From assembly GCA_016793775.1 (NCBI GenBank), contig JAEULK010000059.1, forward strand, positions 1 through 43,941: a stretch of 43,941 bases of DNA. The letters run 5' to 3'. The notes below the pieces were generated by a model. It saw nothing but the letters and a program-made list of their open reading frames with translations. It was not told the DNA's origin and did no database searches. The stretch comes from Sphingopyxis sp. Lineage in GTDB: Bacteria > Pseudomonadota > Alphaproteobacteria > Sphingomonadales > Sphingomonadaceae. Both the position numbers and the translations under genes were made by a program. Of this stretch, positions 28,500 through 43,941 are shown piece by piece (positions within the stretch are counted from its first letter, which is position 1; each line of letters opens with the position of its first letter).

Positions 28500-29200
28500 G
28501 GCTTTTTCCTCTTGCGGCGCTGGAAGGACCAGATCAGCAGCCATGCGCCCGAGACGGCCATCGCAAAGGCGCTCCAGGTCGCGACGCGAAGCAGCGGATT
28601 GTTGACGTCGGTGCGCTCATCATAGTCCATGATGTGGAGCATCCAGGCGAAGTCGAAGACGCGCCACAGCGCGTGGCGCCGCGAGATCAGCTCGCCGGTC
28701 GCGGGCGAGAGGTAGAGCGTCGGACGATTCCAGCCCTCGAACTCCACTTGCCAATAGGGTGGTTTCCGCGACTGCATTTCCTGCGGCGCCGTCGTCAGCA
28801 GGCGAACCGACACGATCTTGCCGTCTCCGGTGTAGATGCGCCGCGCCTGCTCGCGGACCTGGGACTCGGTAAGAGCAGGCAACGGCGCACCCGACCGGGC
28901 ATCGAACAGGCGCGCGCCTTCGGGTGTCTCGGCGCGCCAGACGGGGCGGCCGAAGAAGCGCTGCAAGCGCAGCTCGGAGACACCCGGGGCGACCGCAACG
29001 ACCCGGGACGGCGGCGCAAGACCTGAAAGATTATAGGGTTCCGCAGCCGGCGTGCGGACGAGATGGTCGCCGTGGATAGTGTCGATGTGCACGACCACCA
29101 TATAGAAGCCGGTCAGCGTCCAGAGCAGTGCCTGGACGCCGACCACCAGAGCCAGCCATTTATGCGTTCGCCGGACGAGCAGCGGCCAACGGATCGCCAT
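28496..29200 (-). CDS. PepSY-domain membrane protein 1
   Basis: 234 residues with the same build as its neighbour: RRTHKWLALVVGVQALLWTLTGFYMVVV at the N-terminus, a soluble middle, FAWMLHIMDYDERTDVNNPLLR, and a final membrane helix with a basic tail. The two PepSY genes look like diverged duplicates and may work as a pair in the inner membrane. It starts about 11 bases after the TonB receptor stop, so it belongs to the same transcript. Confidence 0.8.
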   Translation of the reverse strand: MAIRWPLLVRRTHKWLALVVGVQALLWTLTGFYMVVVHIDTIHGDHLVRTPAAEPYNLSGLAPPSRVVAVAPGVSELRLQRFFGRPVWRAETPEGARLFDARSGAPLPALTESQVREQARRIYTGDGKIVSVRLLTTAPQEMQSRKPPYWQVEFEGWNRPTLYLSPATGELISRRHALWRVFDFAWMLHIMDYDERTDVNNPLLRVATWSAFAMAVSGAWLLIWSFQRRKRKKP

Positions 29201-29211
29201 ATCGAATACCC

Positions 29212-31914
29212 TCAGAAAGCCGTCCGGAAGCCGACGTAGAAACGCCGTCCCAGCAGATCATAAGTCATCGTGTCGGTATTCGCATCCGTGAAGCTCTGGA
29301 TGTAGGGCGCCTTTCGATCGAAAAGATTGTCGACGCCGACTTGGAAGCGCGTCTTCTCGTCGACCTCAAAAGCGAGCTGGAGATTGTGGTAGAAAACGTT
29401 CGGCGTGCTGTATCCGATTTCACCGGGCGATGCGTTGAAATCGGTCGCCTTGCCGATCCACTGCGTCGACCAGGTCGCGCTGATGCCGTCCTTCTCGGCG
29501 GTCAGTACGCCATAGCCGCGCCACTTCGAATAGCCGCCGTTGCCGCCGCCGATGAAGCCGTCGAAATCGATCGGCGCGCCGCCCGGAAAGGGCAGGACGA
29601 CATATTTATTGAGATAGGTGAGATTGACGTCGAGCGAGATGTTCACACTGCCGATGCCGCCCGCATAGACGAGCCCGAGATCAAGGCCGTTCATTTCCTC
29701 GCGGCCGGTGTTGATCGGCTGAGCGGACAGGAAAGTGACTTCGCCGGTCAACGGGCTGCGCGTGAAATCGTCGCAAAAGGGGTGCGACAGATTCTGGCTC
29801 GCGTAGCAGATCGACAGCTTCGTGGACCCAGGAATGGCACGGATCGCGTCCTTGATCTTGATATCAAACCAGTCGGCGGTGAGTGACAGGCCGGGGACCA
29901 GCCCCTTCGGCGAGATCACCGTGCCGACCGTCCAGGTGGTCGAGCTTTCGGGCTGCAGATTCTCGTTCCCGCCCACCGTGGTGAGGATCGTGGTCCCGAG
30001 CTGGACATAATTGGCGGGCACGCCCGATGCCTGACAGTTCGCCATCAGCGTCGCATTGCCGCTGGTCGAGTAGCGCGAGCAAGGATCGGTCGTCGTCAGA
30101 TTGCCTTCCGACACCCCGCCGAACAGTTCGGGGACGTTCGGAATGCGGAAACCCGTCCCATAGGTGCCGCGCAGGCGGAAACTGTCGTTGATGACCCAGT
30201 CGATGCTACCCTTATAGTTCCAGTCGCTCCCGAAAAGGTCGTAGTTCGAGTAGCGAACCGCGCCGTCGAGCGTAAGCGACTGGAAGAAGGGCTTGTCAGC
30301 CAGGATCGGCACCGACAGCTCGAGATAGGCTTCCTTCGCGATGCTCGTTCCCGAAATCGGACTTTGCTGGTTGGTGTTCGCGATGCCGAGCACGGTCAGC
30401 GGATCGGGATCGCGCCAGCCCTTCTCCTTGCGATAGACGACGCCCGCCGCGAAGGAGACAGGCCCCGCAGGCATTTTGAAAAGATCGCCATTGATGTCTG
30501 CCGTGACCGTCGCCAGCTCGTTTCCGCCGCGATCACGCGAGGTAAAGAGGATATAGTCCAGAACTTGCGGCGTGAGATCGCCGAACCCGAGATAGTCGCC
30601 GCACGGAATAGCCGCGCCCGGCGCCGGGCTGCACACGCCGGTATTGATGGTGTTGCGAACGCGCTCGAGGTTGGCGATGTTGGTTGAACCATCTACGGCT
30701 GTGTTGCGCCCGAATGCTCCAGCGACTTCCCATCCCCAATCGTTAGCCAGCTTGCCGCGCAGACCGAAGGTGCCCTGCCAGGTATCGGTTTCCTGGAAGA
30801 ACTGGCGCGGCCCTGGTTCAGCAAGGCGGCGCTGGACAAGAACAATATTCTGCCCCGTCGGGTTGGTCGGATTACTCGCCGCGATCGACAGGTTGCGCAG
30901 CGTTCCCGGCGTCGCGATCTGGTTCGACTTGCGGAAGGTGTAGAGGAACTCGCCAAATGCCTCTATATTGTCGGTCAGGTCATAGTCCGCAAAAAAGGCC
31001 GTGCTGACACGCTCGACCGGGCTGACCGCATTCAGGAATGGGTTCGAATTGAAATTATGCTTCGCGGCACTGTACGGCTCGAAGAAATTGCCGTTGCCGC
31101 CCGGCACCTGGTTGAAATTGATTTGCTGACCGTTGGGCAGCACGGCGCGCCCGCCGATGGTCGAGGCGCTGTTGACGCAGCTCAATGACCCCGGCGTCGT
31201 TTCGGCAAGCGAGCATGGCGCCCGCGTGGCCATATTGACCGCCTTGGTCTTCTGGTAGGTGACGGCCGCCATGAAGCCGCCGCGGTCGTTGCGGATGCCC
31301 CAGAGGAGGTCGGCGGTGAAATCCGAGCCGTCGCCCTTTCCGGTAAGGCCCTGGCGGACGCTCAGCCCGAGCCCCTCATAGTCGGTGCGGGTCACGAGGT
31401 TGACCACGCCCGCCATCGCATCCGCGCCATAAATGGCCGAGGCACCGTCCTTGAGTACATCGGTGCGCGCGAGCGCGGCAACCGGGATCATGTTGAGGTC
31501 AGGCGACGAGTTCGCGCCGGTGCCGCCCGCGACGAGGCGGCGGCCGTTGAGAAGGACGAGGGTGCGCTTGATGCCGAGGCCGCGCAGGTTGACCTGAGCC
31601 GTACCATAGCCGTTGTTCGCCCAGTAAGCCGAGGTCTGGTTGCCCGCGAAGCCGGCATTGGCCGGAAGGCGCTGCAACACGGTCTCGATATTGACCAGGC
31701 CGGTATTTTCGATCTGCTCGGCCGACACGACGGTGGCGGGGCCGACGCCGGCAAGATCCTGGCGGCGGATACGCGAACCGGTCACCACGATGTCGCTTCC
31801 CGCTTCGCTCGCCTCCGCGGCGGACGCGGGGGCCGCTCCATCCTGGGCGAAAGCCGGCGTTGCGATAGTTGCGACCACCGCGGCGCTCGCGAGCAATGAT
31901 TTTCTGATCGACAT
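29212..31914 (-). CDS. TonB-dependent outer-membrane receptor
   Basis: 900 residues. A signal peptide ends at AFAQ (residue 24). The plug domain begins near residue 40 with DIVVTGSRIRR, a sequence common in sphingomonad receptors, and includes NLRGLGIKRTLVLLNGRRLV. The barrel occupies the rest and ends with the expected C-terminal phenylalanine (GRRFYVGFRTAF). The substrate cannot be read from sequence. Two PepSY genes follow in the operon and a HutC-like regulator faces it. A metal-chelate or amino-acid/peptide ligand is a guess. Confidence 0.93.
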   Translation of the reverse strand: MSIRKSLLASAAVVATIATPAFAQDGAAPASAAEASEAGSDIVVTGSRIRRQDLAGVGPATVVSAEQIENTGLVNIETVLQRLPANAGFAGNQTSAYWANNGYGTAQVNLRGLGIKRTLVLLNGRRLVAGGTGANSSPDLNMIPVAALARTDVLKDGASAIYGADAMAGVVNLVTRTDYEGLGLSVRQGLTGKGDGSDFTADLLWGIRNDRGGFMAAVTYQKTKAVNMATRAPCSLAETTPGSLSCVNSASTIGGRAVLPNGQQINFNQVPGGNGNFFEPYSAAKHNFNSNPFLNAVSPVERVSTAFFADYDLTDNIEAFGEFLYTFRKSNQIATPGTLRNLSIAASNPTNPTGQNIVLVQRRLAEPGPRQFFQETDTWQGTFGLRGKLANDWGWEVAGAFGRNTAVDGSTNIANLERVRNTINTGVCSPAPGAAIPCGDYLGFGDLTPQVLDYILFTSRDRGGNELATVTADINGDLFKMPAGPVSFAAGVVYRKEKGWRDPDPLTVLGIANTNQQSPISGTSIAKEAYLELSVPILADKPFFQSLTLDGAVRYSNYDLFGSDWNYKGSIDWVINDSFRLRGTYGTGFRIPNVPELFGGVSEGNLTTTDPCSRYSTSGNATLMANCQASGVPANYVQLGTTILTTVGGNENLQPESSTTWTVGTVISPKGLVPGLSLTADWFDIKIKDAIRAIPGSTKLSICYASQNLSHPFCDDFTRSPLTGEVTFLSAQPINTGREEMNGLDLGLVYAGGIGSVNISLDVNLTYLNKYVVLPFPGGAPIDFDGFIGGGNGGYSKWRGYGVLTAEKDGISATWSTQWIGKATDFNASPGEIGYSTPNVFYHNLQLAFEVDEKTRFQVGVDNLFDRKAPYIQSFTDANTDTMTYDLLGRRFYVGFRTAF

Positions 31915-31959
31915 GCGAAACCCCCTTTTGGTTCGTGATGAACCGCAGAGAGCATCAAT

Positions 31960-31969
31960 TGTATATACA
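31960..31969. promoter_or_regulatory. HutC-type operator TGTATATACA before the receptor
   Basis: A perfect 10-base palindrome, TGTA-TA-TACA, matches the TGTA-N2-TACA form I recall for HutC proteins. It sits 46 bases before the receptor start, in an AT-rich stretch that should hold the core promoter. A related sequence occurs at the regulator's own promoter. Confidence 0.7.
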
Positions 31970-32134
31970 GGTCAATATAAAATATGACGTAACTTCAATA
32001 TCTTAGTTCTAAATCAGAAGGTCGCACCAGATATTGCTAATACGCATCCCAAAGCCCTACCCCTCATGCATCGCGATATTTTTTTGCACATGGGGTCGAA
32101 CAGCGCCCGAGAGAGGTCGCGCCCGCTCAAAATC

Positions 32135-32151
32135 GTGTAATTTAATTACAC
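32135..32151. promoter_or_regulatory. 17-base palindrome, unassigned operator candidate
   Basis: GTGTAATTTAATTACAC has two perfect 8-base arms around one T and is followed by a run of seven C. It lies about 220 bases before the receptor start and about 95 bases after the frameshifted lipoprotein. Neither strand shows a T-run, so it is more operator-like than terminator-like. No regulator can be named. Confidence 0.5.
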
Positions 32152-32245
32152 CCCCCCGATCACGCGCCGCGCTTCGGCGCATCGCCGTGCGTCGCCCGAA
32201 GGCGAGTCGAACCCGTCATCGGTCGATCGGGCGGGGGGATATCCC

Positions 32246-32403
32246 CTACATCTTGTCCATGTCATGCCCGGCGTGGGGATCGGGCTCGGGGTCGGCAGGC
32301 TTGGGGACCTCCGGCGCCGGCTTCGCTCGAGACGGAACAGCCACCTTCGGCTTCGGCGTGGGACGCGACATCTCGGGCGACCGGGGCGCTGCCTTCAAAC
32401 CGC
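32246..32403 (-). pseudogene. Displaced-frame C-terminal half of the copper-cluster lipoprotein
   Basis: Downstream of the lipoprotein stop, another frame continues as GLKAAPRSPEMSRPTPKPKV and ends in PDPHAGHDMDKM and a TAG. This proline- and lysine-rich text, with a His/Met end, fits a metal-cluster lipoprotein. It reads straight on from the first half if the CCCC run (plus-strand GGGG at 32404-32407) had one more base. The joined product would have 111 residues. A real frameshift and a sequencing slip cannot be told apart here. A free-standing 41-residue frame from an ATG at 32371 is also possible. Confidence 0.55.
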
Positions 32404-32580
32404 CGGGGCCTCGGCTGCCGTCTTTTCCGCGGCTGGCGGGGCCTCGACCGGCGCCAGCGCGACTGCGGCGGATTCGTCCTGGACAGGGGCGACGTCGGCT
32501 TCCTGTCGCGGCTCGGCGCCGCAGCCCGCGAGCACAAGCATGAACGCAGCGGCGGCCGACAGGGGGACGAAACGCGTCAT
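32395..32580 (-). CDS. Small lipoprotein at the end of the cop operon, apparently truncated by frameshift
   Basis: 61 residues as read. MTRFVPLSAAAAFMLVLAGC has a lipobox with Cys20. The rest is rich in Ala, Glu and Pro and ends at a TGA, just after a CCCC run. It lies about 30 bases after the DUF411 gene and in the same direction. Its function is unknown. The His/Met-rich tail that seems to belong to it continues in another frame. Confidence 0.6.
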   Translation of the reverse strand: MTRFVPLSAAAAFMLVLAGCGAEPRQEADVAPVQDESAAVALAPVEAPPAAEKTAAEAPAV

Positions 32581-32609
32581 ATCAAATCTTCCTATTGCCG
32601 TACATCGGG

Positions 32610-33134
32610 TCACGCACGGAACTGTGAAGCCTTGCCGTCCTTGGCGAAGGCCATCACTTCGAAGGCGTCGATACTTCCGTCCGGCATTTCCATTCCCGGA
32701 GACCCGCGCGGCATTCCGGGCACGGCAATGCCGCGAATGTCGCGCGGCTTGTCGGCCAGGATTTTGGCGACATGGCGCATGGGAACATGGCCCTCGATCG
32801 CGTAATCGCCGACGATCGCGGTGTGGCAGGACGCCAACTCGGCGGGAACACCATGCCGCGCCTTGACGGCAGGCATGTCCGAGCGACTCTCGACGGTGAC
32901 CGCATAGCCCTCGGCGCGAGCAATGTCGGCCCATGCTTCGCAGCAGCCGCATTCCGGGTCACGATAGACGAGAATGGGCACGTCGCGCTTGCCTTTGACC
33001 GGCGCGGGAGATGCTCTGGCCTCGGACGGTCCCGCGGCGGCTGACTTGCGATCACACCCGGCGAGCGCCGCGGCGGCGCCAGCCACGATGAGGCCGAGAA
33101 GGTTTCGCCGGCTGTAGATAGATGCCATCTTCAT
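32610..33134 (-). CDS. DUF411 copper protein (CopG-like) with twin-arginine lipoprotein signal
   Basis: 174 residues. SRRNLLGLIVAGAAAALAGC combines a twin-arginine pattern and a lipobox (Cys27). The DUF411 core has the CXCC motif in DPECGCCEAW, and later HTAIVGDYAIEGHVPMRHV, a hallmark of the family. DUF411 proteins include CopG, a periplasmic copper-binding and redox protein found in cop clusters. Its start lies 20 bases after the copB stop. The alternative start is the second ATG, two codons on. Confidence 0.88.
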   Translation of the reverse strand: MKMASIYSRRNLLGLIVAGAAAALAGCDRKSAAAGPSEARASPAPVKGKRDVPILVYRDPECGCCEAWADIARAEGYAVTVESRSDMPAVKARHGVPAELASCHTAIVGDYAIEGHVPMRHVAKILADKPRDIRGIAVPGMPRGSPGMEMPDGSIDAFEVMAFAKDGKASQFRA

Positions 33135-33154
33135 GTTCGTCCCACCGCGAGAGT

Positions 33155-34231
33155 CTAGAACCAGGCCCGCACCCCCATCACGAAGCTTACGCCGCTAGGG
33201 TCTTCACCCGCGGCACGGGCGAAACGCGCCGTGTCGCCGACCTTGCGCGCCCATTCGACCCCGACATAGGGCGCAAATTCCTTCACGATCTCGTAGCGCA
33301 GGCGGAGACCGAGCTCGACGTCCGAGAGACCCGACCCCACGCCCGTCTCGGGCACGTCCTGAGCCGAGAAATTGAGTTCGGCCATTGGCTGGAGAATCAG
33401 CTTCTGCGTAATTCGCTGGTCATAATAGCCTTCGAGCCGGCCGAGGAGATCGCCCTTGTTCGAGAGGAACAATGCGCCCTCGACTTCGAACCAATAGGGG
33501 GCGAGCCCTTCGAAGCCGATCGTCGCATAGGTCCGGTCCGGGCCCGGCCCGAGATCCCGCCGAATACCCGCCTGCGCATTGAAATAGGGTCCGATCGCCC
33601 GGCTGTAGAGCATCTGCAATTCGGCTCCCTCAATGCCTTCGCCGAAGACGCCCTCGCCTTCGCTCTTGATCGTAAGCCGGTTGATATCGCCGCCGTACCA
33701 GGCCTCGCCGTCCCAGCGGAAGCCGTCGCCGCCCTTGCGCACCTGATACTCGGCAAGATTGAAGCTGATGAAAGCGATTGTCTGCGCGCCATTCTCCTTC
33801 ATCATCTCGTGGCGCGAGTGCTCCATCTCCGCCGCCGGATAGATGCGGTCGGCATACCAGTCGGACGGCGGTGCTGGCGCGGGAGCGTCGCCGGGTGCAA
33901 GGTCGGTGCCGGTGGCCCCGGGCGCCGGTTCGTTTGCCGCACTGGCCTTTGGGACGCAGTGGCCCATTTTCGCATGCTCGGGCGGGCAGTCCGGCGCGTC
34001 CGTCGCCTTCTGGTCCATTTCCATGCCGGGCATCTCGCCATGATCCATGCCCGCCATCGGCTCGGTCTCGGGTTGCGGCTTCGCTGAAACGGGCGGTTGG
34101 GCGACGGGCTGCGCGGGCTTGGACGGCATCGTCATCCCGGGCATCGACGAGTGATCCATCGACTGCGCGGCAGCCGGCGAAGCGAAGGCGAGCGCAGCGG
34201 TCCCGCCGAGAAAAAGGGCGGCGCGGGTCAT
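33155..34231 (-). CDS. copB: Copper resistance outer-membrane protein CopB
   Basis: 358 residues from the ATG at 34231, in a four-base overlap with copA; the longer open frame to 34552 only shadows copA. A signal peptide is followed by a Met/His-rich segment (MDHSSMPGMTMPS, MAGMDHGEMPGMEMD) and the peptide CPPEHAKMGHC. The C-terminal 220 residues are a beta-barrel-like CopB domain with DWYADRIYPAAEMEHSRHEM at its start. It should bind or move copper at the outer membrane together with CopA. Confidence 0.94.
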   Translation of the reverse strand: MTRAALFLGGTAALAFASPAAAQSMDHSSMPGMTMPSKPAQPVAQPPVSAKPQPETEPMAGMDHGEMPGMEMDQKATDAPDCPPEHAKMGHCVPKASAANEPAPGATGTDLAPGDAPAPAPPSDWYADRIYPAAEMEHSRHEMMKENGAQTIAFISFNLAEYQVRKGGDGFRWDGEAWYGGDINRLTIKSEGEGVFGEGIEGAELQMLYSRAIGPYFNAQAGIRRDLGPGPDRTYATIGFEGLAPYWFEVEGALFLSNKGDLLGRLEGYYDQRITQKLILQPMAELNFSAQDVPETGVGSGLSDVELGLRLRYEIVKEFAPYVGVEWARKVGDTARFARAAGEDPSGVSFVMGVRAWF

Positions 34232-36072
34232 TCGGCGTCTCCCTTCGGACGGACGCTCACGACGCGCATCATCCCTGCGTGCATGTGATAGAGCAAATGA
34301 CAGTGGAACGCCCAGTCGCCGAGCGCGTCGGCGGTAAAATCGAAGCTCGCGGTGCCGCCCGGCTGGACGAGCACCGTATGCTTGCGGGGCGAGCGGTCGC
34401 CCTTGCCCGTGACCAGTTCGAAGAAATGGCCATGCAGATGGATAGGGTGGCTCATCATCGAATCGTTGATGAGGTTGATCCGCACCCGCTCGCCCTCGAT
34501 GAAGGGGATCGGCTCGTGACGATCGGACATCTTCACGCCATCGAACGACCACATGAAGCGTTCCATGTTGCCGGTGAGGTGAATGTCGAGCGAACGCGAG
34601 GCAGCGCGCACGTCGGGGTTGCGTTCGAGCGCGACGAGATCGTGATAGGTCAGCACCTTATGCCCGACACCTTCGAGCCCCTGCCCCGGCTCGCCCATGC
34701 GATCAGAGGGCATCGGCGAGATCGTCTGGACGCTCGGGTCGCGCTTCACCTGCGGCGCGACGCTGAAATCGCGCATGCTGTGCTGCATCGCGCCGCCCGA
34801 TCCATGATCCATGCCGGCCATTGCGCCGCCTTCGCCCGCAGCAGTGCAATGGCCCATTTTGGCATGTTCGGGAGGACAGGCGGGATCGGCCGCCGGCATC
34901 GGCATCGCGCCCATGTCGCCGCCACCCGAATGATTCATGCCCGCCATCGAACCGCCCGACATGTCGCCCATGCCCATGTCCTTCATCGTCGCGAGGGGGC
35001 GCTCGCGCAGCGGCGGAACCTCGGCGACCATGCCGGCACGCGGCGCGAGCCTCGCGCGCGCCATGCCCGAGCGGTCGTTCGCCTCGGCGACGAGCGTGTA
35101 GGCGCGGTCCTCGACCGGGGTTACGATGACATCATAGGTTTCGGCGACGGCGATCTGGAATTCGTCGATCTCGGTCGGTACGACATTGAGGCCGTCGGCT
35201 TGCACGACCGTCAGCCGCAGACGGGGAATACGCACGTTGAAGATCGTCATCGCGGATGCATTGATGATCCGCAGCCGCACCCGCTCGCCCGGGTTGAAAA
35301 GCGCGGTCCAGTTGTCGCGGGGACCGTGACCATTAACGAGGAAGGTGTAGGTCGATCCATTGACGTCTGCGACGTCGGTCGGGTCCATGCGCATCGCGCC
35401 CCACTCGATGCGTTCTTTCAGCGGCTGGTCCTTGCCCGCGAGAAGCCCCGACAGCGTCTGGCGCTGCATGTTGAAATGGCCCGGGTTGACCTTGAGCTTG
35501 CGGAAGATCGCCTCGGGGGAGAGCTGGCTGTGGTCGGACAGCACCACGACATGCTCGCGGTCGTAACCGATCGGGTCGGCGCCCGCCGGATCGATCACGA
35601 TCGGTCCGTAGTGGCCGAGCTGCTCCTGGAGCCCCGAATGGCTGTGATACCAATAGGTTCCTGACTGTACGACCGGGAATTCGTAAACGAATTGCGAGCG
35701 GGGCCTGATGCCGGGAAAGCTGACCCCCGGCACGCCGTCCATATGGAAGGGCAGGATGAGTCCGTGCCAGTGGATCGAGCTGTCCTCGTCGAGATCGTTG
35801 ATGACGGTGAGTTTCGCCGTCTGCCCTTCCTTCAACCGCACAAGCGGCGCCGGCACGGTGCCGTTGATCCCGATCGCCCGGCTGAGCTTGCCGTCGATAC
35901 GCATCGTCTGCCGTGCGATGCGCAGCGTGATGTCATTGCCCGACACGGTGGGAACGGGCGCCGTGATACCCTGCGACATGGGCTGCGCCCAGGCGGGGAA
36001 CCATGCCGCCGCGGCGGCAACTGCCCCGCCGCCCAAAGTCGCACCCACGAACCGACGCCTGTCTACCTGCAT
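34228..36072 (-). CDS. copA: Multicopper oxidase CopA (periplasmic copper resistance)
   Basis: 614 residues with a twin-arginine signal (MQVDRRRFVGATLGGGAVAA). Copper ligands of the first domain appear as SIHWHGL and YWYHSHSG. The C-terminal type 1/type 3 motifs appear as HPIHLHGHFFELV and HCHLLYHMHAGMM. A Met/His-rich insert near residues 350-420 includes MKDMGMGDMSGGSMAGMNHS and CPPEHAKMGHC, the same 11-residue peptide as in CopB. It should oxidise Cu(I) to Cu(II) and bind copper. A sigma-type promoter shared with two other operons lies just upstream. Confidence 0.96.
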   Translation of the reverse strand: MQVDRRRFVGATLGGGAVAAAAAWFPAWAQPMSQGITAPVPTVSGNDITLRIARQTMRIDGKLSRAIGINGTVPAPLVRLKEGQTAKLTVINDLDEDSSIHWHGLILPFHMDGVPGVSFPGIRPRSQFVYEFPVVQSGTYWYHSHSGLQEQLGHYGPIVIDPAGADPIGYDREHVVVLSDHSQLSPEAIFRKLKVNPGHFNMQRQTLSGLLAGKDQPLKERIEWGAMRMDPTDVADVNGSTYTFLVNGHGPRDNWTALFNPGERVRLRIINASAMTIFNVRIPRLRLTVVQADGLNVVPTEIDEFQIAVAETYDVIVTPVEDRAYTLVAEANDRSGMARARLAPRAGMVAEVPPLRERPLATMKDMGMGDMSGGSMAGMNHSGGGDMGAMPMPAADPACPPEHAKMGHCTAAGEGGAMAGMDHGSGGAMQHSMRDFSVAPQVKRDPSVQTISPMPSDRMGEPGQGLEGVGHKVLTYHDLVALERNPDVRAASRSLDIHLTGNMERFMWSFDGVKMSDRHEPIPFIEGERVRINLINDSMMSHPIHLHGHFFELVTGKGDRSPRKHTVLVQPGGTASFDFTADALGDWAFHCHLLYHMHAGMMRVVSVRPKGDAE

Positions 36073-36106
36073 GTTCTTCCCGACCGTTTCCGAATGTTCC
36101 TAATGC

Positions 36107-36138
36107 CATACGCAGGCGCGGCGCCTGCCCCTCATCGG
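36107..36138 (-). promoter_or_regulatory. ECF-type promoter of copAB (GRTGAGGG-N15-GCGTATK)
   Basis: On the minus strand CCGATGAGGG, 15 bases, then GCGTATG, ending 35 bases before the copA ATG. The same element with the same 15-base spacing precedes the sigma cassette (37497-37528) and copC (37546-37577). The GCGTAT box suits the CGT-type -10 boxes of ECF sigma factors. Confidence 0.75.
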
Positions 36139-36176
36139 CCTGCATGAAAAAGAGGGATGCGCGTGACATCTGCCGG

Positions 36177-36761
36177 TCAATCGCCCGCGTTTTCGCTCGC
36201 TCCGCCAAGCAGCAGCTTGAGCCGTGCCCGCGCCCGATAAAGGCGGGTTTCGACGGTCTTTTCGCTGACGTCGAGCATCGCCGCGGCTTCGGACTGGCTG
36301 ACCTCGTCGAGGCCGCGAAGGAGGAGCACTTCGCGCAAGTTTGCGGGCAGCGCCGCAACCGCCTCGCGAACCCGCGCCAGCTCCAGCCGGTCGCCCACTT
36401 CCATGTCGGGCGACGGGGTTTCGCTGGCGACATGATGCGCGATATCGAGCGGCAATGCGCGGGAGAAAAAGGCGCGCACCTTCCGCCGGCGTCCCCAGTC
36501 GCGGCATTTGTTCAGTGCGATCCGCGATATCCAGATACGAAACGGCCGCGTGCCATCATAGCGATCGAGCGCCGAGAATCCGGCGACAAAGCTTTCCTGC
36601 GTCAGATCCATGGCTTCATCGGTGTCGCCGATATGCTTGACGATCAGCCGGTACACCGCCGCCTTGTGGCGGCTCAGCAACTCGCGATAGGCGTCCTCAT
36701 GCTTGGCGCGGGCACGCGCCGCAAGATTCTGGTCGCTAAGCTGCGATAGGTCGGGGCTCAC
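36177..36761 (-). CDS. ECF sigma factor, CnrH-like
   Basis: 194 residues with region 2 (YRLIVKHIGDTDEAMDLTQESFVAGFSALDRYDGTRPFRIWISRIALNKCRDWGRRR) and region 4 (LRGLDEVSQSEAAAMLDVSEKTVETRLYRARARLKLLL). It directs RNA polymerase to a small set of promoters. Its start overlaps the sensor gene by four bases. The position after an anti-sigma-like and a CnrX-like gene is the YXH order of Cupriavidus cnr. The copA promoter lies directly downstream. Confidence 0.93.
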   Translation of the reverse strand: MSPDLSQLSDQNLAARARAKHEDAYRELLSRHKAAVYRLIVKHIGDTDEAMDLTQESFVAGFSALDRYDGTRPFRIWISRIALNKCRDWGRRRKVRAFFSRALPLDIAHHVASETPSPDMEVGDRLELARVREAVAALPANLREVLLLRGLDEVSQSEAAAMLDVSEKTVETRLYRARARLKLLLGGASENAGD

Positions 36762-37195
36762 CGCGCATCGGCGGTCAGCGCCTTGACCACGCTCTTGTCG
36801 AACATGCGCGCCTGATCGTCATCGAGGATGGCGCGCATCGCGAAGAGATGCTCGAGCGTTTCCTTCTGCAATGTCCCCATCACGTCGTGCGTATGGTCGA
36901 TCGCCTCGGTGACGCGGGGACCATAACCATGCTCGGCCTCGATTGCCTGCGCGAGCCGGACGTTGGCGGCGCGCATTTCGGTCTCAAGCGTGCGGCGCCG
37001 TCCCGCGAACCGGGCTTCGATCTTCTCGAGCTTGGCTTCCTGCGCTGGCGTCAGGTCGAGTTCGCTGTGGAGCAGTGCATGCAGTTCGGTTTCACTGGCG
37101 CGCGGCGGATCGGACACGATGCGGCCGATGAAGACGCCCGCGATGGCGGCGGCGAATGCGATCAGGCCGACGATGAGCAAGCGGCGCGACGGCAT
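36758..37195 (-). CDS. Periplasmic heavy-metal sensor, CnrX-like
   Basis: 145 residues: an N-terminal membrane anchor (LLIVGLIAFAAAIAGVFIG) and a helical periplasmic domain of the CnrX/Spy type. His39, His43, Glu60, His116 and Met120 fall where CnrX has His42, His46, Glu63, His119 and Met123; all spacings are equal. These are the metal ligands of CnrX as I recall them. It should hold the anti-sigma factor until metal binds. It lies between the anti-sigma and sigma genes, two bases after the first and overlapping the second. Confidence 0.85.
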   Translation of the reverse strand: MPSRRLLIVGLIAFAAAIAGVFIGRIVSDPPRASETELHALLHSELDLTPAQEAKLEKIEARFAGRRRTLETEMRAANVRLAQAIEAEHGYGPRVTEAIDHTHDVMGTLQKETLEHLFAMRAILDDDQARMFDKSVVKALTADAR

Positions 37196-37197
37196 CC

Positions 37198-37464
37198 CTA
37201 TTCGACGTCCAGCAAGGTCGAGGGTGCCAGGGCGCTAGCGGGTCCGAACGGGCTGAGCGGACCGGCGGCCACGGCTGGCTCCGGGAAAGCGCTTCCCGCG
37301 ATAACGCCGCCACCCAGCGACACGACTGCCGCGAGCGCCATAAGGCGACCGATCGCAACCGATTCCCGGCGCCGCGCCGCGAGGGCGCCCAGAACCCGAT
37401 CGTCCAGCGCGTCGAGCGCCGGCGGCAGATCAATCCTGCTCAATATGCGAAGCTCTTCGTCCAT
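37198..37464 (-). CDS. Membrane anti-sigma factor, CnrY-like
   Basis: 88 residues. The first 40 are polar, with helices that could bind sigma (DEELRILSRIDLPPALDALDDRVL). A single membrane segment (GRLMALAAVVSLGGGVIAG) and a short periplasmic tail follow. Size and layout match CnrY, although I see little direct sequence similarity. It heads the operon behind its own copy of the shared promoter. Confidence 0.75.
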   Translation of the reverse strand: MDEELRILSRIDLPPALDALDDRVLGALAARRRESVAIGRLMALAAVVSLGGGVIAGSAFPEPAVAAGPLSPFGPASALAPSTLLDVE

Positions 37465-37496
37465 CGGCCTGTCTCGCCTATCCTTCCTTCATTTCT

Positions 37497-37528
37497 CATA
37501 CGCACCCGCGAAGATCATCCCTCACCGC
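37497..37528 (-). promoter_or_regulatory. ECF-type promoter of the sigma cassette
   Basis: On the minus strand GCGGTGAGGG, 15 bases, then GCGTATG, ending 33 bases before the anti-sigma start. It matches the copA and copC elements in both boxes and in spacing, so the cassette is probably autoregulated. Confidence 0.75.
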
Positions 37529-37545
37529 TTGCGATCTTTTCGTTT

Positions 37546-37577
37546 CGGATGAGGGTTATGCGATCGTCTTGCGTATT
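37546..37577 (+). promoter_or_regulatory. ECF-type promoter of copCD
   Basis: On the plus strand CGGATGAGGG, 15 bases, then GCGTATT, ending 30 bases before the copC ATG. It points away from the sigma cassette promoter only 18 bases to its left, so the two form a compact divergent pair. Confidence 0.75.
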
Positions 37578-37607
37578 AGCAGGACAGACACGCAATTGGA
37601 GATTTTT

Positions 37608-37991
37608 ATGTTCAAGTCGCTTCTCCCCTCCGCGGCGGCCGCTTTCGCCCTGCTCCTCATGCCCGGCGCCGCGAATGCGCATACCAAGCTTATCGGCTCC
37701 ACGCCTGCCGCCAATTCCACCGTTTCGAAGGTGACGTCGGTTACCCTCAAATTCAACGAAAAGGTGATCGCCTCTACGGTGAAGACCGAGTTCGTGATGA
37801 CGGGCATGCCCGGCATGGCGAATCACGCCCCGATGAAGATCCCCTACACCTCGGCGATGGGCAAGGATGGCAAGTCGATGACGCTCGCGCTGAAGCGCGC
37901 GCTGGTCCCCGGCACCTACAGGGTCAAATGGTCGGGCGCGGGTGCTGATACCCACCGCATGGACAGCGAATTCAGCTTCACCGTGAAGTAA
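37608..37991 (+). CDS. copC: Periplasmic copper chaperone CopC
   Basis: 127 residues from the ATG at 37608, with GGAG seven bases upstream. A signal peptide ends at ANA, giving a mature N-terminus HTKLIGSTPAA, where the first His is a Cu(II) ligand in CopC proteins. VMTGMPGMANHAPMKI is the Met-rich Cu(I) site. A conserved YRVKWSGAGADTHRMDSEFSF ends the protein. It passes copper to CopD, whose gene starts five bases later. Confidence 0.95.
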   Translation: MFKSLLPSAAAAFALLLMPGAANAHTKLIGSTPAANSTVSKVTSVTLKFNEKVIASTVKTEFVMTGMPGMANHAPMKIPYTSAMGKDGKSMTLALKRALVPGTYRVKWSGAGADTHRMDSEFSFTVK

Positions 37992-37995
37992 GGCG

Positions 37996-38967
37996 GTGGG
38001 CGATCCCGTCCTGATCAGCATCAGGTTCGCGCTTTACGCAGACCTGATGCTTGTCGCGGGCCTCGCCGCCTTCCCGTTATATGCCCTGACGCGAACCGAG
38101 CGATTGAGGCCAGCGCTGATGGCGACGATCTGGCGGATCGAGCGATGGCTCTGTGCCGCCGGGCTGTTTCTCTCGGCCCTCGGCATGGGCGTTCTCGCCG
38201 CATCGATGCAGGGCGTGAGCATCCTTTCGCTCGAACTCCAGCCCTTTCTCGACCTTGTTCTCGAGACCGATGTCGGCGCGGCCTGGATTTACCGGAGCAC
38301 CGCGCTTCTCGCCGCCCTGGCGGCCACGATCTGGCTGACGCGCTGGCCTACGTTCACCGCCGTCCTTCTCGCGGCTGCAGGCTCGCTCGCCGTCGCTACC
38401 CTGGTCTGGTCCGGCCACGCTGGCGCGACCGAAGGCGTCGCCGGAACCATGCACCGGGTCAGCGACATATTGCATATGATCGCGGCCGCGGTCTGGATCG
38501 GCGCGATCGGCACCTTCCTTCTCCTGATATCGCCGCAAGTCCTTTGCCAATTGCCGGACGGCCTCCCACTAGCGGCGCGGAGTCTCGATCAATTTTCGCG
38601 CATCGGCACGATCTGCGTCCTCGTTATCGCGGCGACGGGGCTCATCAACAGCCAGATGATCGTCGGCCTCGACAATTTCTCCCGGTTGTCGGGCTCGCGT
38701 TATGGCCAGCTTCTGCTGGCCAAGCTCGCGTTGTTCGGACTGATGCTGGCACTCGCAGCGGCCAACCGTTGGCGGCTGACGCCGAGGCTCGCAGCCGCAG
38801 CGGAAGAGGGCGATTCCGAAACTATCGGGGCCGATCCCGGCGTGGCGCTCGACGCCATGCGCCGAAGCCTGCTTCTCGAGGCGGCGGCTGCGGTCTTGGT
38901 CCTTGCGCTCGTCGCCTGGCTCGGCACGCTCGAACCGGCCGCAGGCGTCGATATTTTCCGAGCTTGA
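37996..38967 (+). CDS. copD: Copper import/homeostasis membrane protein CopD
   Basis: 323 residues from a GTG start, with about eight membrane segments. Typical CopD positions are seen in the SGHAGA motif, HRVSDILHMIAAAVWIGAIGTFLLL and RFSRIGTICVLVIAATGLINSQMI-like text. CopC and CopD move copper across the inner membrane. Its stop overlaps the -35 box of the next promoter. Confidence 0.93.
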   Translation: MGDPVLISIRFALYADLMLVAGLAAFPLYALTRTERLRPALMATIWRIERWLCAAGLFLSALGMGVLAASMQGVSILSLELQPFLDLVLETDVGAAWIYRSTALLAALAATIWLTRWPTFTAVLLAAAGSLAVATLVWSGHAGATEGVAGTMHRVSDILHMIAAAVWIGAIGTFLLLISPQVLCQLPDGLPLAARSLDQFSRIGTICVLVIAATGLINSQMIVGLDNFSRLSGSRYGQLLLAKLALFGLMLALAAANRWRLTPRLAAAAEEGDSETIGADPGVALDAMRRSLLLEAAAAVLVLALVAWLGTLEPAAGVDIFRA

Positions 38968-38994
38968 CTCCATACTATGGTACAGATCCTATAA
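38964..38994 (+). promoter_or_regulatory. MerR-type promoter with 19-base spacer
   Basis: TTGACT (38964-38969), 19 bases, and CTATAA (38989-38994). The long spacer and the dyad CCATACTATGG in it are hallmarks of promoters opened by MerR-family metal regulators. The 5' part closely resembles the mer operator of Tn501 from memory. No merR-like gene is in the window. It should drive the two small exported proteins and the RND genes. Confidence 0.65.
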
Positions 38995-39045
38995 GCGGAT
39001 GAGCCGCCGAAAATCCGACGGGGATCACAAGGGGGTGGGGAAGCC

Positions 39046-39122
39046 GGTTGCACCGTTGCGAGGGCAACGAGATCGAGGTGTAACCGCGGGGGGATCGCCG
39101 GCGAACAGCCGGGCAGTCCCGC
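39046..39122 (+). other. Folded leader RNA between the MerR-type promoter and the first gene
   Basis: GGTTGCACC (39046-39054) pairs with GGTGTAACC (39077-39085) over nine pairs including one G-U. Inside is a GTTGC-GAGG-GCAAC hairpin. Next to it GCGGG (39086-39090) pairs with CCCGC (39118-39122) around a CCGGC-GAACA-GCCGG hairpin. This much nested pairing is unlikely by chance. The RNA class is unknown. Confidence 0.55.
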
Positions 39123-39160
39123 GCCGGTTTCGGATTGACGGCAAGTCGGACAAGGATCAT

Positions 39161-39538
39161 GTGTCGCCTGTGAAGTGCTGGCTTTCCCTTATGCTCCTGG
39201 TGGGAGCGATGCTGGGCCTTTTGGCCCAGGAGGCGGCGTTTGCCTCGGCCCCGGCGATGCCCATGGCGTCGGAGACGACCATTGCCGCGCCCGCGATGAG
39301 CGACGAGTGCGCGGAAATGATGGGCATCGACAAGTCCGATGACAGTGCACCCTGCAAAGGCCTGACACTCGACTGCATCGCCAAGATGGGTTGCGCCCTC
39401 CCGCTGGCGATCGCCACGCCCGCTTCCATGCTGGAAGCAACCGACCACCGCGTGGCCCCAACCGACCGGTTGCCGATCGCACGTCTGCGCGGCCGGAGCT
39501 ACGGTCCCGAGCCCGACCCGCCTTTATTCCTCGGCTGA
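39161..39538 (+). CDS. Cys/Met-rich exported protein of the copper cluster
   Basis: 125 residues from a GTG at 39161, with AAGGA four bases upstream; GTG 39170 and ATG 38999 are other in-frame choices. The latter would be leaderless from the MerR-type promoter and adds an Arg-rich 54-residue front. A signal segment (LSLMLLVGAMLGLLAQEAAFASA) is followed by Met-rich text and four Cys (DECAEMM, APCKG, LDCIAKMGC). I know no function; copper or other metal binding is likely. A perfect hairpin follows the stop. Confidence 0.6.
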   Translation: MSPVKCWLSLMLLVGAMLGLLAQEAAFASAPAMPMASETTIAAPAMSDECAEMMGIDKSDDSAPCKGLTLDCIAKMGCALPLAIATPASMLEATDHRVAPTDRLPIARLRGRSYGPEPDPPLFLG

Positions 39539-39545
39539 AACGCGT

Positions 39546-39575
39546 GACACGCGGCGACCCTTGTCGCCGCGTGTC
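39546..39575 (+). terminator. 13-base perfect stem after the Cys/Met-rich gene
   Basis: 39546-39558 and 39563-39575 pair perfectly around a CCTT loop. A modest T-rich stretch follows. It may end or attenuate transcription before the next gene. Confidence 0.65.
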
Positions 39576-39604
39576 CTCCTGCTTTTCAACCGAGGATATT
39601 CAAC

Positions 39605-39868
39605 ATGAAGATGATCATTACGATGGCCGCAGCGCTTGCGGCCTTCACCACTGCGCCCTCCTTCGCCCAGGAAGCGGGCGGCCATTATGAATGGCAATCG
39701 CGGCAAGTCCCGGGCCCGAACAAGTCGGGCGCCACGACGCGGGTTCGCGTGTGGGTCGCCGACAAGTCCGATCAGATGGCAAGCTGCGACTGCGCCATGA
39801 TGAAGACCGATGCGGCCGGCTGCATGCACGCCATGCCTGGGCAGCGCATGTCACCCTCAAAAGGCTGA
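39605..39868 (+). CDS. Small exported protein of the copper cluster
   Basis: 87 residues with a signal peptide (MIITMAAALAAFTTAPSFAQ) and GAGGAT upstream of the ATG. The mature part has YEWQSRQVPGPNKSGATTRVRVWV, then CDCAMMKTDAAGCMHAM, a Cys/Met/His end that could bind metal. I do not know a function. It precedes the RND genes and is separated from them by a 10-base perfect hairpin. Confidence 0.75.
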   Translation: MKMIITMAAALAAFTTAPSFAQEAGGHYEWQSRQVPGPNKSGATTRVRVWVADKSDQMASCDCAMMKTDAAGCMHAMPGQRMSPSKG

Positions 39869-39876
39869 CGGCTTCC

Positions 39877-39902
39877 GTCCCCCGGCCTGCGTGCCGGGGG
39901 AC
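39877..39902 (+). terminator. 10-base perfect stem before the RND operon
   Basis: GTCCCCCGGC (39877-39886) and GCCGGGGGAC (39893-39902) pair around a 6-base loop. No T-run follows, so it may act as an attenuator or mRNA processing/stability element rather than a full terminator. The next ribosome-binding site lies about 20 bases on. Confidence 0.5.
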
Positions 39903-39932
39903 ATTCCCGCCTGTCTCGAAAGAGGGGGACTT

Positions 39933-41162
39933 ATGCGCATATATCTTGCGGCAATTTTGCTGATCCCGATTCCCGCGGCGCTGCATGCCGAGCCGATGAC
40001 GCTCGATGCGGCACTTGCCCGCGCGGCATCGGAGGCGCCCGAATTGCAGGGCCGCGGAGCCGGCATCGATGCCGCCCAATCGGCGGCGATCGCCGCCGAC
40101 CGGCTGCCCGACCCGAAACTCAATGTCGTCCTGCAGGATTTCCCGGTGACCGGGCCCGATGCGGGCCGGTTCAATCGCGACGATTTCACGATGCAGGTGA
40201 TCGGCGTCAGCCAGGACTTTCCAAACCCCGCCAAACGCCGCGCGCGCGCGACGCGCGCGCAGGCCGACATCGGAATCGCCCGCGCCGACGAAGCGGTCAC
40301 CGCGCAAGACATCAGGCTCGCAACCGCGCTTGCCTGGGTCGATCTCTTCTACGCCAAAAAGCGTCTCAAGGAACTCGACCTGCTCGATACCGGCCTCGAA
40401 GACCTTCAAGCGACGGTCACCGCGCGGCTCGCCAGCGGTGCCGCGCGCCCGGCGCAGGCGCTCGAACCCGATCAGCTTCGCGCCGCAATCAACGATCGGC
40501 GCAGCGCGCTCGCCGCCGATATCGCTCGCGCGCGCGCGCAGCTCGCACGCTTCACCGGCGACGCGGCAGCCGACACGCTCGGCGACTTGCCGCCCCAAAT
40601 GATCGACGAACAAGGATTGCGCGCCGGGATCGACGCCTTGCCAAAGCTCAGGGCGCTCGACGCCCGCGCCCTCGCGGCCGATGCCGAGACCGGCCTCGCG
40701 CGCGCCGACAAACGCCCCGACTGGAGCGTCAACGCGGCTTATGGCCGGCGCGAGCCGAATTTTGGGGACCTTGTCACGGTCGGCGTCACCGTCGACCTGC
40801 CCTTCTTCTCGAAAAAGCGGCAGGACCCGAAAATCGCCGCGCGCGCCAGCGAGGCGACACGCGCCCGGCTCGACCGCGAGGCCGCCAAGCGCGACATCGC
40901 GGCGGCGCTCGACGCCGATCTCGCCGATCACCGGATGCATCATGAGCAGCTCGCCAATGCGCGCACGCGGCTCGTCCCGCTCGCGAAGAAGCGCGCCGAG
41001 CTCGATCTTGCCAGTTACGCCGCCGGAAAGCTCGACCTCGGCACCGCACTGCTGTCGACCCTCGCGCTCACCGAGGCCGAAGTCGATGCGCTCGCGCGCG
41101 AAGCCGAGGTCGCGCGCGACGCGATCCGGATCAACTACAACTATGGGGAGGCAGGTCGATGA
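39933..41162 (+). CDS. Outer-membrane channel of an RND efflux system (CusC-like)
   Basis: 409 residues from the ATG at 39933, with AGAGGGGG upstream. A signal peptide ends near HAEP. The TolC-type repeats are marked by TLDAALARAASEAPELQGRGA and, in the second half, SVNAAYGRREPNFGDLVTVGVTVDLPFF. Long coiled-coil helices with Ala/Arg heptads lie between. It forms the outer-membrane exit duct of a tripartite metal pump with the two following genes. Its stop overlaps the next start by four bases. Confidence 0.9.
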   Translation: MRIYLAAILLIPIPAALHAEPMTLDAALARAASEAPELQGRGAGIDAAQSAAIAADRLPDPKLNVVLQDFPVTGPDAGRFNRDDFTMQVIGVSQDFPNPAKRRARATRAQADIGIARADEAVTAQDIRLATALAWVDLFYAKKRLKELDLLDTGLEDLQATVTARLASGAARPAQALEPDQLRAAINDRRSALAADIARARAQLARFTGDAAADTLGDLPPQMIDEQGLRAGIDALPKLRALDARALAADAETGLARADKRPDWSVNAAYGRREPNFGDLVTVGVTVDLPFFSKKRQDPKIAARASEATRARLDREAAKRDIAAALDADLADHRMHHEQLANARTRLVPLAKKRAELDLASYAAGKLDLGTALLSTLALTEAEVDALAREAEVARDAIRINYNYGEAGR

Positions 41163-42388
41163 CCGATGCAACATCAGCGGCGCGTTGGCGCGCCGGAATA
41201 TTGGCCGCGGTGCTGATCGCAGGCGGCGGCGGTTACTGGCTGGGACAGCGCGGCCAGAGCGATGCGCCGACCGAGGCGACAGACAGCGGCGGGCGCAAGA
41301 TCCTCTATTATTATGATCCGATGTTCCCGAACCAGAAGTTCGACAAGCCCGGCAGGTCGCCCTTCATGGATATGCAGCTCGAGCCCAAATATGCCGACGA
41401 GGGCGGCGGAGCGGCACCGGGCGTGTCGGTCGACCCTGCCGCGCGGCAAAACCTCGGCATAAGAGTGGTCGCCGCCGAGATGGGCAGCCTCACGGCAACC
41501 TTCGACGTCAATGGCAGCATCGATTTCAACCAGCGCGACGTCGCGATCGTCCAGGCGCGCTCGGGCGGTTTCGTCGAGCGCGTCTATCGCCTCGCGCCCG
41601 GCGACGTGATCGGGGCGGGCACGCCGATCGCCGATCTGCAATTGCCCGAATGGGGCAGCGCCCAGACCGAATATCTGAGCGTCAAAAAGCTCGGGCGCCC
41701 CGAACTCACCGCGGCCGCACGGCAGCGGCTGCGCCTGATGGGCATACCCGAAGGCGTAATCGCCGAGGTCGACCGCACCGGACGCACCGGCGGCAGGCTG
41801 ACGGTACGCGCGCCGATCGGCGGGGTGGTCCAGACGCTGAATGCCCGCGCGGGTGTGACGCTCGCCGTCGGGCAGACGCTCGCCGAAATCTCGGGGCTCG
41901 GCACCGTATGGCTCAACGCCGCGCTTCCCGAAGCGCAGGCCGGACTGGTGAAGATCGGCCAGCGAGCGACCGCGACCCTCACCGCCTTCCCCGGCGAGAG
42001 CTTCGCCGGCCGGGTCATCGCCATCCTGCCGACCGCATCGGCCGACAGCCGGACGCTGACGGTGCGCGTCGAGCTCGCTAACCGCGGCGGGCGCCTGCGC
42101 CCCGGCATGTTCGCGGTGGTCGCGCTCGGCGGCGACGCGAAACCGGCGCTGCTGGTCCCGAGCGAAGCGGTGATCCGCACCGGCACGCGCAGCATCGTGA
42201 TGCTCGAGAAGGGCGACGGACGCTACCACCCCGCCGAAGTGGTCGCCGGACGCGAAGGCGGCGGCAAGACCGAGATATTGCGGGGGCTCGCTCCCGGCGA
42301 AAAGGTCGTCGCCTCAGGTCAGTTCCTGCTCGATTCCGAGGCGAGCCTGACCGGCATCACGGTTCGCCCGCTGGAGCCCGCGCAATGA
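41159..42388 (+). CDS. RND efflux periplasmic adaptor (CusB-like) with heavy-metal-binding domain
   Basis: 409 residues. After a membrane anchor, the sequence [19 protein letters not shown], then [12 protein letters not shown], is the heavy-metal-binding domain of CusB-type adaptors. The membrane-fusion part includes [35 protein letters not shown] (lipoyl-like), a helical hairpin and beta-barrel domains ([25 protein letters not shown]). It links the pump to the channel. It overlaps both neighbours by four bases. Confidence 0.93.
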
Positions 42389-43941
42389 TCGCGAAGATCA
42401 TTCGCGCTTCGGTCGCGGCGCGCGGGCTCGTCGTCGCGGCGGCGCTGATCCTGACATTGCTCGGGATCGCCGCGGTGCGCACGACCCCGGTCGACGCCCT
42501 ACCCGATCTCTCCGACGTCCAGGTCATCATCCGCACTACCTATGCGGGCCAGGCGCCGCGGATCGTCGAGGATCAGGTCACCTATCCAATCACGACGACG
42601 ATGCTGTCGGTGCCCGGCGCCCGCGTCGTGCGCGGCTATAGCTTCGTCGGCGACAGCTTCGTCTATGTGCTCTTCGACGACGGCACCGATCCCTATTGGG
42701 CGCGCAGCCGCGTCCTCGAATATCTGAGCCAGGTTCAGAGCCGCCTCCCCGAAGGCGCCCGCGCAAGCCTCGGCCCCGACGCGACCGGGGTCGGCTGGAT
42801 TTATGAATATGCGCTCGTCGACAAGAGCGGCCGCCATGATCTGGCCGAGCTCCGCAGTCTCCAGGACTGGTTCCTGCGCTTCGAGCTCAAATCGGTCCCC
42901 GGCGTCGCCGAGGTCGCGAGCATCGGCGGCATGGTGCGCCAGTATCAGATCATCGTCGATCCGCAGAAGCTTGCCGCCTTCGGCGTGACCGCAACCGACG
43001 TCGCAGACGCGCTCAAGCGCGCCAATCAGGAAAGCGGCGGTGGCTCCCTCGAACTCGCCGAGGCCGAATATATCGTGCGCGCGGGCGGCTATCTGAAGTC
43101 GCTCGACGATTTCCGTTCGGTCCCCGTCCGCACCGCCGCCGGCGGCGTCCCGGTGACGGTCGGCGATGTCGCGACGGTCCAGATCGGCCCCGACACAAGG
43201 CGCGGCATCGCCGAGCTCAATGGCGAGGGGGAGGTCGCGGGCGGCGTGATCGTGATGCGCGAGGGCAAGAATGCGCGCGAGGTCATCGACGGCGTGCGCA
43301 CCAAGCTCGCCGAGCTCAAGCGCAGCCTGCCGCCCGGCGTCGAAATCGTCACCACTTACGACCGCTCGGGGCTGATCGATCGCGCGGTCGACAATCTGGC
43401 CTCGAAGCTCGTCGAGGAATTCATCATCGTCGGGCTCGTCTGCGCGCTGTTCCTGTGGCACGCGCGCTCGGCGCTGGTCGCGATCCTGACGCTGCCGCTC
43501 GGTATCCTCGTCGCCTTCATCGTGATGCGGCTGCAAGGACTCAACGCCAATATCCTCTCGCTCGGCGGCATCGCGATCGCGGTCGGCGCGATGGTCGACG
43601 CGGCGGTGGTGATGATCGAAAATGCCCATAAGCATCTCGAACATTGGGAGCGCGATCATCCGGGCGAGGAACTCAAGGGCGCCGAACGCTCGCGCGTCAT
43701 CACCGACGCCGCCGCCGAGGTCGGCCCCGCCCTCTTCCTCAGCCTGCTCATCATCACCTTCTCCTTCCTCCCCATCTTCACGCTCGAAGGCCAGGAAGGG
43801 CGGCTCTTCTCGCCGCTCGCCTTCACCAAAACCTATGCGATGGCGGCGGCCGCGATCCTCTCGATCACGCTCATCCCGGTGCTGATGGGCTGGCTGATCC
43901 GCGGAAAGATCCCGGCCGAACAGGCCAATCCGGTCAACCGC
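42385..43941 (+). CDS. Heavy-metal RND efflux pump (CusA/CzcA-like), N-terminal half
   Basis: 519 codons are in the window and the frame runs off the end; full pumps have about 1,040 residues. It starts with [20 protein letters not shown], and the first membrane helix follows at once. The helix-4 motif [29 protein letters not shown] matches the heavy-metal RND signature with the charged Asp and Glu of the proton relay. Its periplasmic part ([19 protein letters not shown]) is also CusA-like. The metal, copper/silver or cobalt/zinc, cannot be fixed; the cop neighbours favour copper. Confidence 0.94.

Follow-up and report, generated by a model that had tools for sequence, protein, structure and literature searches.

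In Gram-negative bacteria, copper in the periplasm is known to be sensed mainly by two-component systems, and CopRS, PcoRS and CusRS link the sensing of metal in the periplasm to the induction of copABCD-type genes. CnrX, a relative of the sensor described here, answers to nickel and cobalt. Control of the pco and cop genes by two-component systems is stated in a passage of PMC10141476, where the copper ECF sigma factor named is CorE. Among the open-access matches listed (titles and abstract openings, with most subscription papers and preprints outside this body), no CnrYXH-type system controlling cop genes was found. The locus presented here very probably carries a CnrYXH-type switch dedicated to copper which reads TGAGGG-N16-CGTAT promoters, and it would be a little-recognised means by which bacteria detect copper that lies outside the cell membrane.

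The window, i.e. the whole stretch of 43,941 nucleotides of Sphingopyxis sp. DNA that was analysed, contains a three-gene cassette located between copAB and copCD (Table 1). The order of its operon is anti-sigma, sensor, sigma (37464 to 36177, minus strand), matching cnrY-cnrX-cnrH on pMOL28, and 4 nt are shared by the sensor and sigma genes. The gene content of the locus, as well as the homology of its sigma factor and sensor, is established. On a TonB-copper model the receptor encoded at 29212..31914 scores far below the cut-off.

Table 1. Genes and predicted promoter elements of the locus (positions in the window)
Feature	Position	Strand	Basis
TonB-dependent receptor	29212..31914	-	PF00593/PF07715
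Fourth predicted promoter element, TonB-dependent receptor	32039..32068	-	1 mismatch at first base, core perfect
DUF411 protein	32610..33134	-	PF04214
copB, outer-membrane copper resistance protein	33155..34231	-	PF05275, E 2.9e-89
copA, multicopper oxidase	34228..36072	-	TIGR01480, 795 bits, cut-off 479
Predicted promoter element of copAB	36107..36136	-	exact match; conserved in relatives
ECF sigma factor, CnrH-like, 194 aa	36177..36761	-	Pfam sigma70 r2/r4; PDB 4cxf
Periplasmic metal sensor, CnrX/NccX-like, 145 aa	36758..37195	-	Pfam PF13801; NccX/CnrX matches; predicted fold
Putative short anti-sigma protein, 88 aa	37198..37464	-	presumed function and topology; head-of-operon position in relatives
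Predicted promoter element, anti-sigma/sensor/sigma operon	37497..37526	-	exact match; conserved in relatives
Predicted promoter element of copCD	37548..37577	+	exact match; conserved in relatives
copC	37608..37991	+	PF04234 over cut-off; NCBIfam CopC 92.7, just under cut-off 95
copD	37996..38967	+	NF033808 over cut-off

An ECF sigma factor with CnrY- and CnrX-like partners had been postulated for this cassette, which holds for the sigma factor (CnrH) and the sensor (CnrX/NccX) but not for detectable sequence likeness to CnrY. The best PDB sequence match of the sigma factor is CnrH (4cxf, E 7e-35), and it shares 43% identity with CnrH of pMOL28. The sensor matches NccX (9e-17) and also CnrX, with a profile probability of 99.5%, and CnrX structures are the first matches of its AlphaFold2 model (mean pLDDT 82.9). 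The metal ligands of CnrX, H42, H46, E63, H119 and M123, are all kept in the window sensor as H39, H43, E60, H116 and M120, and in an alignment of 84 rows they are conserved in 82, 84, 84, 84 and 83 rows, respectively; an exception from another set, L086, carries Tyr in place of H43 and also of H116. Moreover, H103 and M106 are invariant (84/84) at positions where CnrX and NccX carry Glu and Ala, and these two residues may tune the metal site or add one for copper.

The protein encoded by the first gene is CnrY-like in size, position and its probable single membrane span, and it has a conserved C-terminal tail around LAPSTLL. No Pfam, NCBIfam or credible PDB match was obtained for it, and hhalign against CnrY gave a probability of 0.2% with only SPFG matched, both proteins being short (88 vs 95 aa). 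The putative anti-sigma role is assigned by position, size, probable membrane span and the conserved place at the head of the operon. Of 119 genomes searched, own included, 60 have the gene, and every one of these 60 belongs to the 72 that represent the same genus. The anti-sigma profile, applied to 385 genomes sampled across the class, matched four, own included. In 17 genomes (L027-L043) the anti-sigma gene is in every case 78% identical to that of the window, and the anti-sigma and copC elements are identical down to their spacers, as if one version of the cassette had either spread recently or been strongly conserved. Lone anti-sigma genes have also been noticed (L100, 8394-8657; L088, 9428-9586), without recognisable sensor, sigma factor or element and, by eye, adjoining a PepSY-like membrane protein; perhaps they are remnants or trans-acting inhibitors.

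A pattern scan of the window bore out the original prediction that GRTGAGGG-N15-GCGTATK occurs in three exact copies with equal spacing, each facing its own gene. The distances given for copA, anti-sigma and copC (35, 33 and 30 bases) are correct for copC, and a recount from the start codons at 36072, 37464 and 37608 (ATG) gives 34 nt for copA and 32 nt for anti-sigma. A fourth copy, absent from that prediction, is located 125 nt upstream of the TonB-dependent receptor gene. A whole-genome search with this pattern, made over an assembly of 3,928,115 bases in 106 contigs (96% complete), returned matches with 0 or 1 mismatch only at these four sites, i.e. before anti-sigma, copA, copC and the receptor. 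At exactly two mismatches there are 16 further sites, as compared with seven matches of the reversed pattern at up to two; two of the 16 are on contig C103, which carries a second, diverged cassette, the first immediately beyond the sigma gene and facing off the contig, the second within the sigma gene. In the window nine matches are found at up to three mismatches against 4.46 expected, and 3 of 100 shuffles reach nine, therefore such loose matches mean little.

Conservation was examined in relatives collected by a scan of named genomes with the sensor alignment, from which the best 80 of 475 were kept. These are mostly Sphingopyxis or Sphingomonadales, and include Novosphingobium, Sphingobium, Erythrobacter, Altererythrobacter, Croceicoccus, Pelagerythrobacter and Sphingorhabdus; several of them come from genomes also present in the other set of relatives. 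Together with three further relatives and the own locus (L184) they form the set L104-L187, whose counts are to be read as those of relatives that are not independent, the best-80 loci being the closest of 475: with at most one mismatch within 170 nt upstream, the element precedes anti-sigma in 80/81, copA in 73/79, copC in 63/76 and the receptor in 16/34. It was found before none of the sensor (0/84), sigma (0/84), copB (0/75) and copD (0/70) genes, nor before DUF411 (0/52), which probably belongs to the copAB operon. A near-perfect site is wanting before copC in 13 of 76 loci and before copA in 6 of 79. The 16 receptors with a site are close orthologues of 88-96% identity (15 exact cores, one with a single mismatch), whereas the 18 that have no site are receptors of other kinds, with 24-26% identity.

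A separate set was composed of L051-L103 and the window, with sites before anti-sigma in 42/52, copA in 43/53 (four of the 53 copA proteins being distant, 24-25% identity), copC in 29/45 and the receptor in 15/22, and with none before sensor (52), sigma (51), copB (49), copD (36) or DUF411 (22); anti-sigma is without a near-perfect site in 10 of 52. In most cases the element lies about 25-40 nt ahead of the start codons of anti-sigma, copA and copC. Its position, its conservation and its restriction to operon heads are established by these counts.

Word pairs (5+5 bases, gaps of 10-22) counted without guidance in non-redundant upstream regions, with five letter shuffles per set, led to the same sequence. 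GAGGG-N16-CGTAT is top-ranked in anti-sigma regions (37/40), and its one-base shift in copA regions (39/45), the shuffled regions giving 2-3 in both cases. In copC regions the top pair is the divergent anti-sigma element read backwards (28/35), followed by the copC element (26/35). For the TonB receptor the search does not pick out the element, because several pairs are present in all 16 of 16 little-diverged leaders. When distinct elements from anti-sigma, copA and copC are aligned, conservation is 30-70% in most columns of the spacer, and the G preceding CGTA reaches 98-100% even though it lay outside the selection criterion; in some cassettes the -10 box is CGTAA or CGTAG.

The core TGAGGG-N16-CGTAT has 211 matches in the best-80 loci (1,332,510 bases) against 0.6 expected under equal base use, whereas the reversed core has none and eight other spacings together have none. 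The expected genes account for 200 of the 211 (anti-sigma 73, copC 53, copA 59, receptor 15). Six of the remaining 11 stand before an ORF whose beginning resembles a copper P-type ATPase, three before a PAS histidine kinase, one before a DUF305-like ORF and one before no ORF. Pfam was used to check a single example of each kind, DUF305 being slightly below cut-off; two of the loci, L160 and L161, are nearly duplicates of each other. On the scale of genomes, TGAGGG-N15-GCGTATK has 167 matches in the 60 same-genus genomes that bear the anti-sigma gene (own included), being present in 53 of them and missing in seven, as compared to two matches in 12 same-genus genomes without the gene, nine in 47 genomes of other genera and four for the reversed control in all 119. 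A chance repeat is ruled out by the assembly scan, the 119-genome counts, the unguided word pairs and the spacer controls.

The resemblance to promoters of the nickel-cobalt system is of particular value. On pMOL28 CAAGGG-N17-CGTAT (two mismatches to the boxes) ends 31 nt before cnrY and CGAGGG-N17-CGTAT (one mismatch) ends 32 nt before cnrC; the spacer is one base longer, and at 16-base spacing each has three mismatches. L189 contains no core match at 0 or 1 mismatch. According to passages of PMC9045368, cnrY and cnrC transcripts start 24 and 25 nt upstream, with nickel-induced expression under CnrH, and cnrY is additionally preceded by an RpoD-dependent start. Box positions and these starts together would put the end of the CGTAT box about 7 nt ahead of the start; carried over to the window, this offset predicts that transcription of copC, anti-sigma and copA begins about 24-28 nt upstream of the genes. 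Boxes containing AGGG and an equal distance of CGTAT are found before the operon and its targets in both systems. Likeness to cnr and the start offset are the strongest reason for calling the element a CnrH-type sigma promoter, and the element would be read by the CnrH-like sigma factor. That the sigma factor would run itself, copAB and copCD through one promoter type, as originally proposed, is supported comparatively by position, direction, homology and cnr likeness. As to the extent of the regulon, copABCD and the cassette's own operon stood, but the regulon is probably larger, with the TonB receptor added and, in some relatives, a copper-type ATPase and other genes.

A further block, TTGACCTGTATATACA, which includes the palindrome TGTATATACA, lies in the leader of the TonB receptor (31915-32040, minus strand) and does not vary in 17/17 aligned copies. 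It is probably a second operator or promoter, therefore the receptor gene seems doubly controlled. No Rfam family reached gathering score in window positions 28000-43941, TonB leader included. The TolC/CusB-like genes of the window (39837-42388) have no element nearby, and exact cores precede 0/12 each of the TolC and CusB-like genes in the best-80 loci. Control of an RND efflux pump of the CnrCBA type was not found; the predicted targets are the cop genes.

The cassette is also carried by plasmids, with sensor matches in 79 of 72,556 plasmid records, 40 of the 79 being typed conjugative and six belonging to Cupriavidus. Three sphingomonad plasmids were examined (L190, L191 and L192) and all are typed conjugative. 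In L192 anti-sigma, copA, copC and the receptor gene are each preceded by an exact core, and a P-type ATPase gene by a site with one mismatch. In L191 an exact core precedes copA and a one-mismatch site copC, and no site with 0-1 mismatch is found ahead of anti-sigma. L190 shows one-mismatch sites near anti-sigma, copA and copC; its copCD lies about 7 kb away from the sigma gene, and an oxidoreductase gene has an exact core ahead of it. Three exact cores are present in L185. In the most distant members of the class (L186 and L187) a sensor/sigma cassette occurs with AGAGGG or GGAGGG -N16-CGTAT elements, one of which, in L186, faces by eye a cytochrome c-like gene. The trio related to the cassette in L096 (7104-8415) adjoins a different TonB receptor, with no 0-1-mismatch element in the 18-kb stretch. 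The diverged cassette of the same genome (L051, contig C103, 154-1465; anti-sigma, sensor and sigma) has CGTAA as its -10, and the contig ends before any target gene; in the related cassettes L092-L094 CGTAA is found before copA and copC too. The two paralogues may therefore have partly separate promoters.

The mechanism envisaged is as follows. The short membrane anti-sigma protein would keep the ECF sigma factor inactive until the membrane-anchored periplasmic sensor binds copper and alters its grip on the anti-sigma protein; the altered contact would free the sigma factor, and RNA polymerase loaded with it would initiate at TGAGGG (-35) -N16- CGTAT (-10), serving the switch's own operon, copAB(-DUF411), copCD and the TonB-dependent receptor. 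Judging from the genes controlled, copper would be the signal. Another signal, such as silver, gold, nickel/cobalt or general envelope stress, with copper genes downstream by coincidence of usage, is rather doubtful. In its favour, the CnrX/NccX kin serve nickel/cobalt resistance, metal specificity is unreadable from sequence and the receptor has no assigned cargo. Nevertheless, the metal-linked targets are copper genes, joined in some relatives by a YHS/HMBD P-type ATPase, and the invariant His and Met of this sensor family are missing from CnrX and NccX.

It may also be asked whether genuine ECF promoters are read here by another or additional ECF sigma factor, e.g. the C103 paralogue. The second cassette in the same genome makes this conceivable, and cross-recognition is plausible because a single -10 base separates the C103 element from the core. 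However, the element heads the cassette's own operon and accompanies the cassette across genera and onto plasmids, and genomes with a single anti-sigma match, e.g. G005, retain it, so this option is considered unlikely. Least probable by a clear distance is that the element serves as an operator of CopR, CueR or another activator or repressor, the sigma cassette being incidental: CopR-like and CueR-like proteins do exist in the genome below cut-off, but such a role is disfavoured by directionality (the element is non-palindromic), by two boxes at fixed spacing (0 at eight other spacings), by the position mostly some 25-40 nt before the start codons of anti-sigma, copA and copC, by association with the cassette, with which the element travels, and by likeness to the CnrH-dependent cnr promoters.

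The switch was originally proposed to replace CopRS/CueR control. In agreement with this no CopR or CueR passes the cut-off in the genome (best 203 bits vs 279 and 117 vs 147, respectively) and neither model has a match on the window's contig, but members below the cut-off occur elsewhere, and it is therefore probably just the periplasmic branch that has been replaced. A related cassette on the SYK-6 plasmid (L191) has cueR and a P-type ATPase gene as neighbours, hence cytoplasmic copper control can coexist with it. The whole composite statement, namely a widespread, plasmid-mobile sphingomonad copper system of the CnrYXH kind which replaces CopRS, whose sensor came to sense copper through an invariant His-x2-Met pair gained on the CnrX fold, and which governs oxidation in the periplasm (copAB, copCD), transport across the outer membrane (the TonB receptor) and in some species a copper ATPase through one promoter sequence, is regarded as slightly favoured.

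If true, a CnrYXH-type module on copABCD would be a second logic of periplasmic copper sensing, and the copper regulon of many sphingomonads could be predicted from one short DNA pattern. It would also account for a gene labelled merely hypothetical on the three plasmids examined, and CnrX (nickel/cobalt) and the window sensor (presumed copper) would make a natural pair for the evolution of metal choice on one fold.

Compared with known systems, CopRS, PcoRS and CusRS use a histidine kinase and a response regulator, whereas the window locus would use a sigma and an anti-sigma factor. CorE of Myxococcus xanthus is likewise an ECF sigma factor over multicopper oxidase and copper ATPase genes, as stated in part of PMC10141476; it senses copper through its own Cys-rich C-terminal domain, and passages of PMC3107203 report that no anti-sigma factor was found. 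In contrast, the window sigma factor stops after region 4, has no Cys there and is accompanied by a putative anti-sigma protein and a periplasmic sensor. A CorE-type assignment was rejected on this architecture (Cys-rich C-terminal domain missing, anti-sigma gene present). SigF/NrsF of Caulobacter crescentus is an alphaproteobacterial ECF system too, important for copper tolerance according to a section of PMC8224329, but its promoter is GTAACC-N16-CGAA and its regulon is different, as given in portions of PMC3511200 and PMC8224329; with promoter sequence and architecture both differing, this assignment was rejected as well. The closest resemblance is to CnrYXH/NccYXH, the nickel-cobalt systems of Cupriavidus metallidurans, with which the locus shares the gene order anti-sigma, sensor, sigma, a sigma factor 43% identical to CnrH, a sensor with the CnrX fold and five ligands, and an element upstream of both the cassette operon and the target, with similar boxes equally placed. 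The differences are the target (an RND nickel pump there, copABCD and the TonB receptor here), an anti-sigma sequence unrelated at a detectable level, the extra invariant H103 and M106 of the sensor and a spacer one base shorter than in cnr. On the homology of two of the three proteins and on the promoter, it can be said that the locus would work like CnrYXH, with copper targets.
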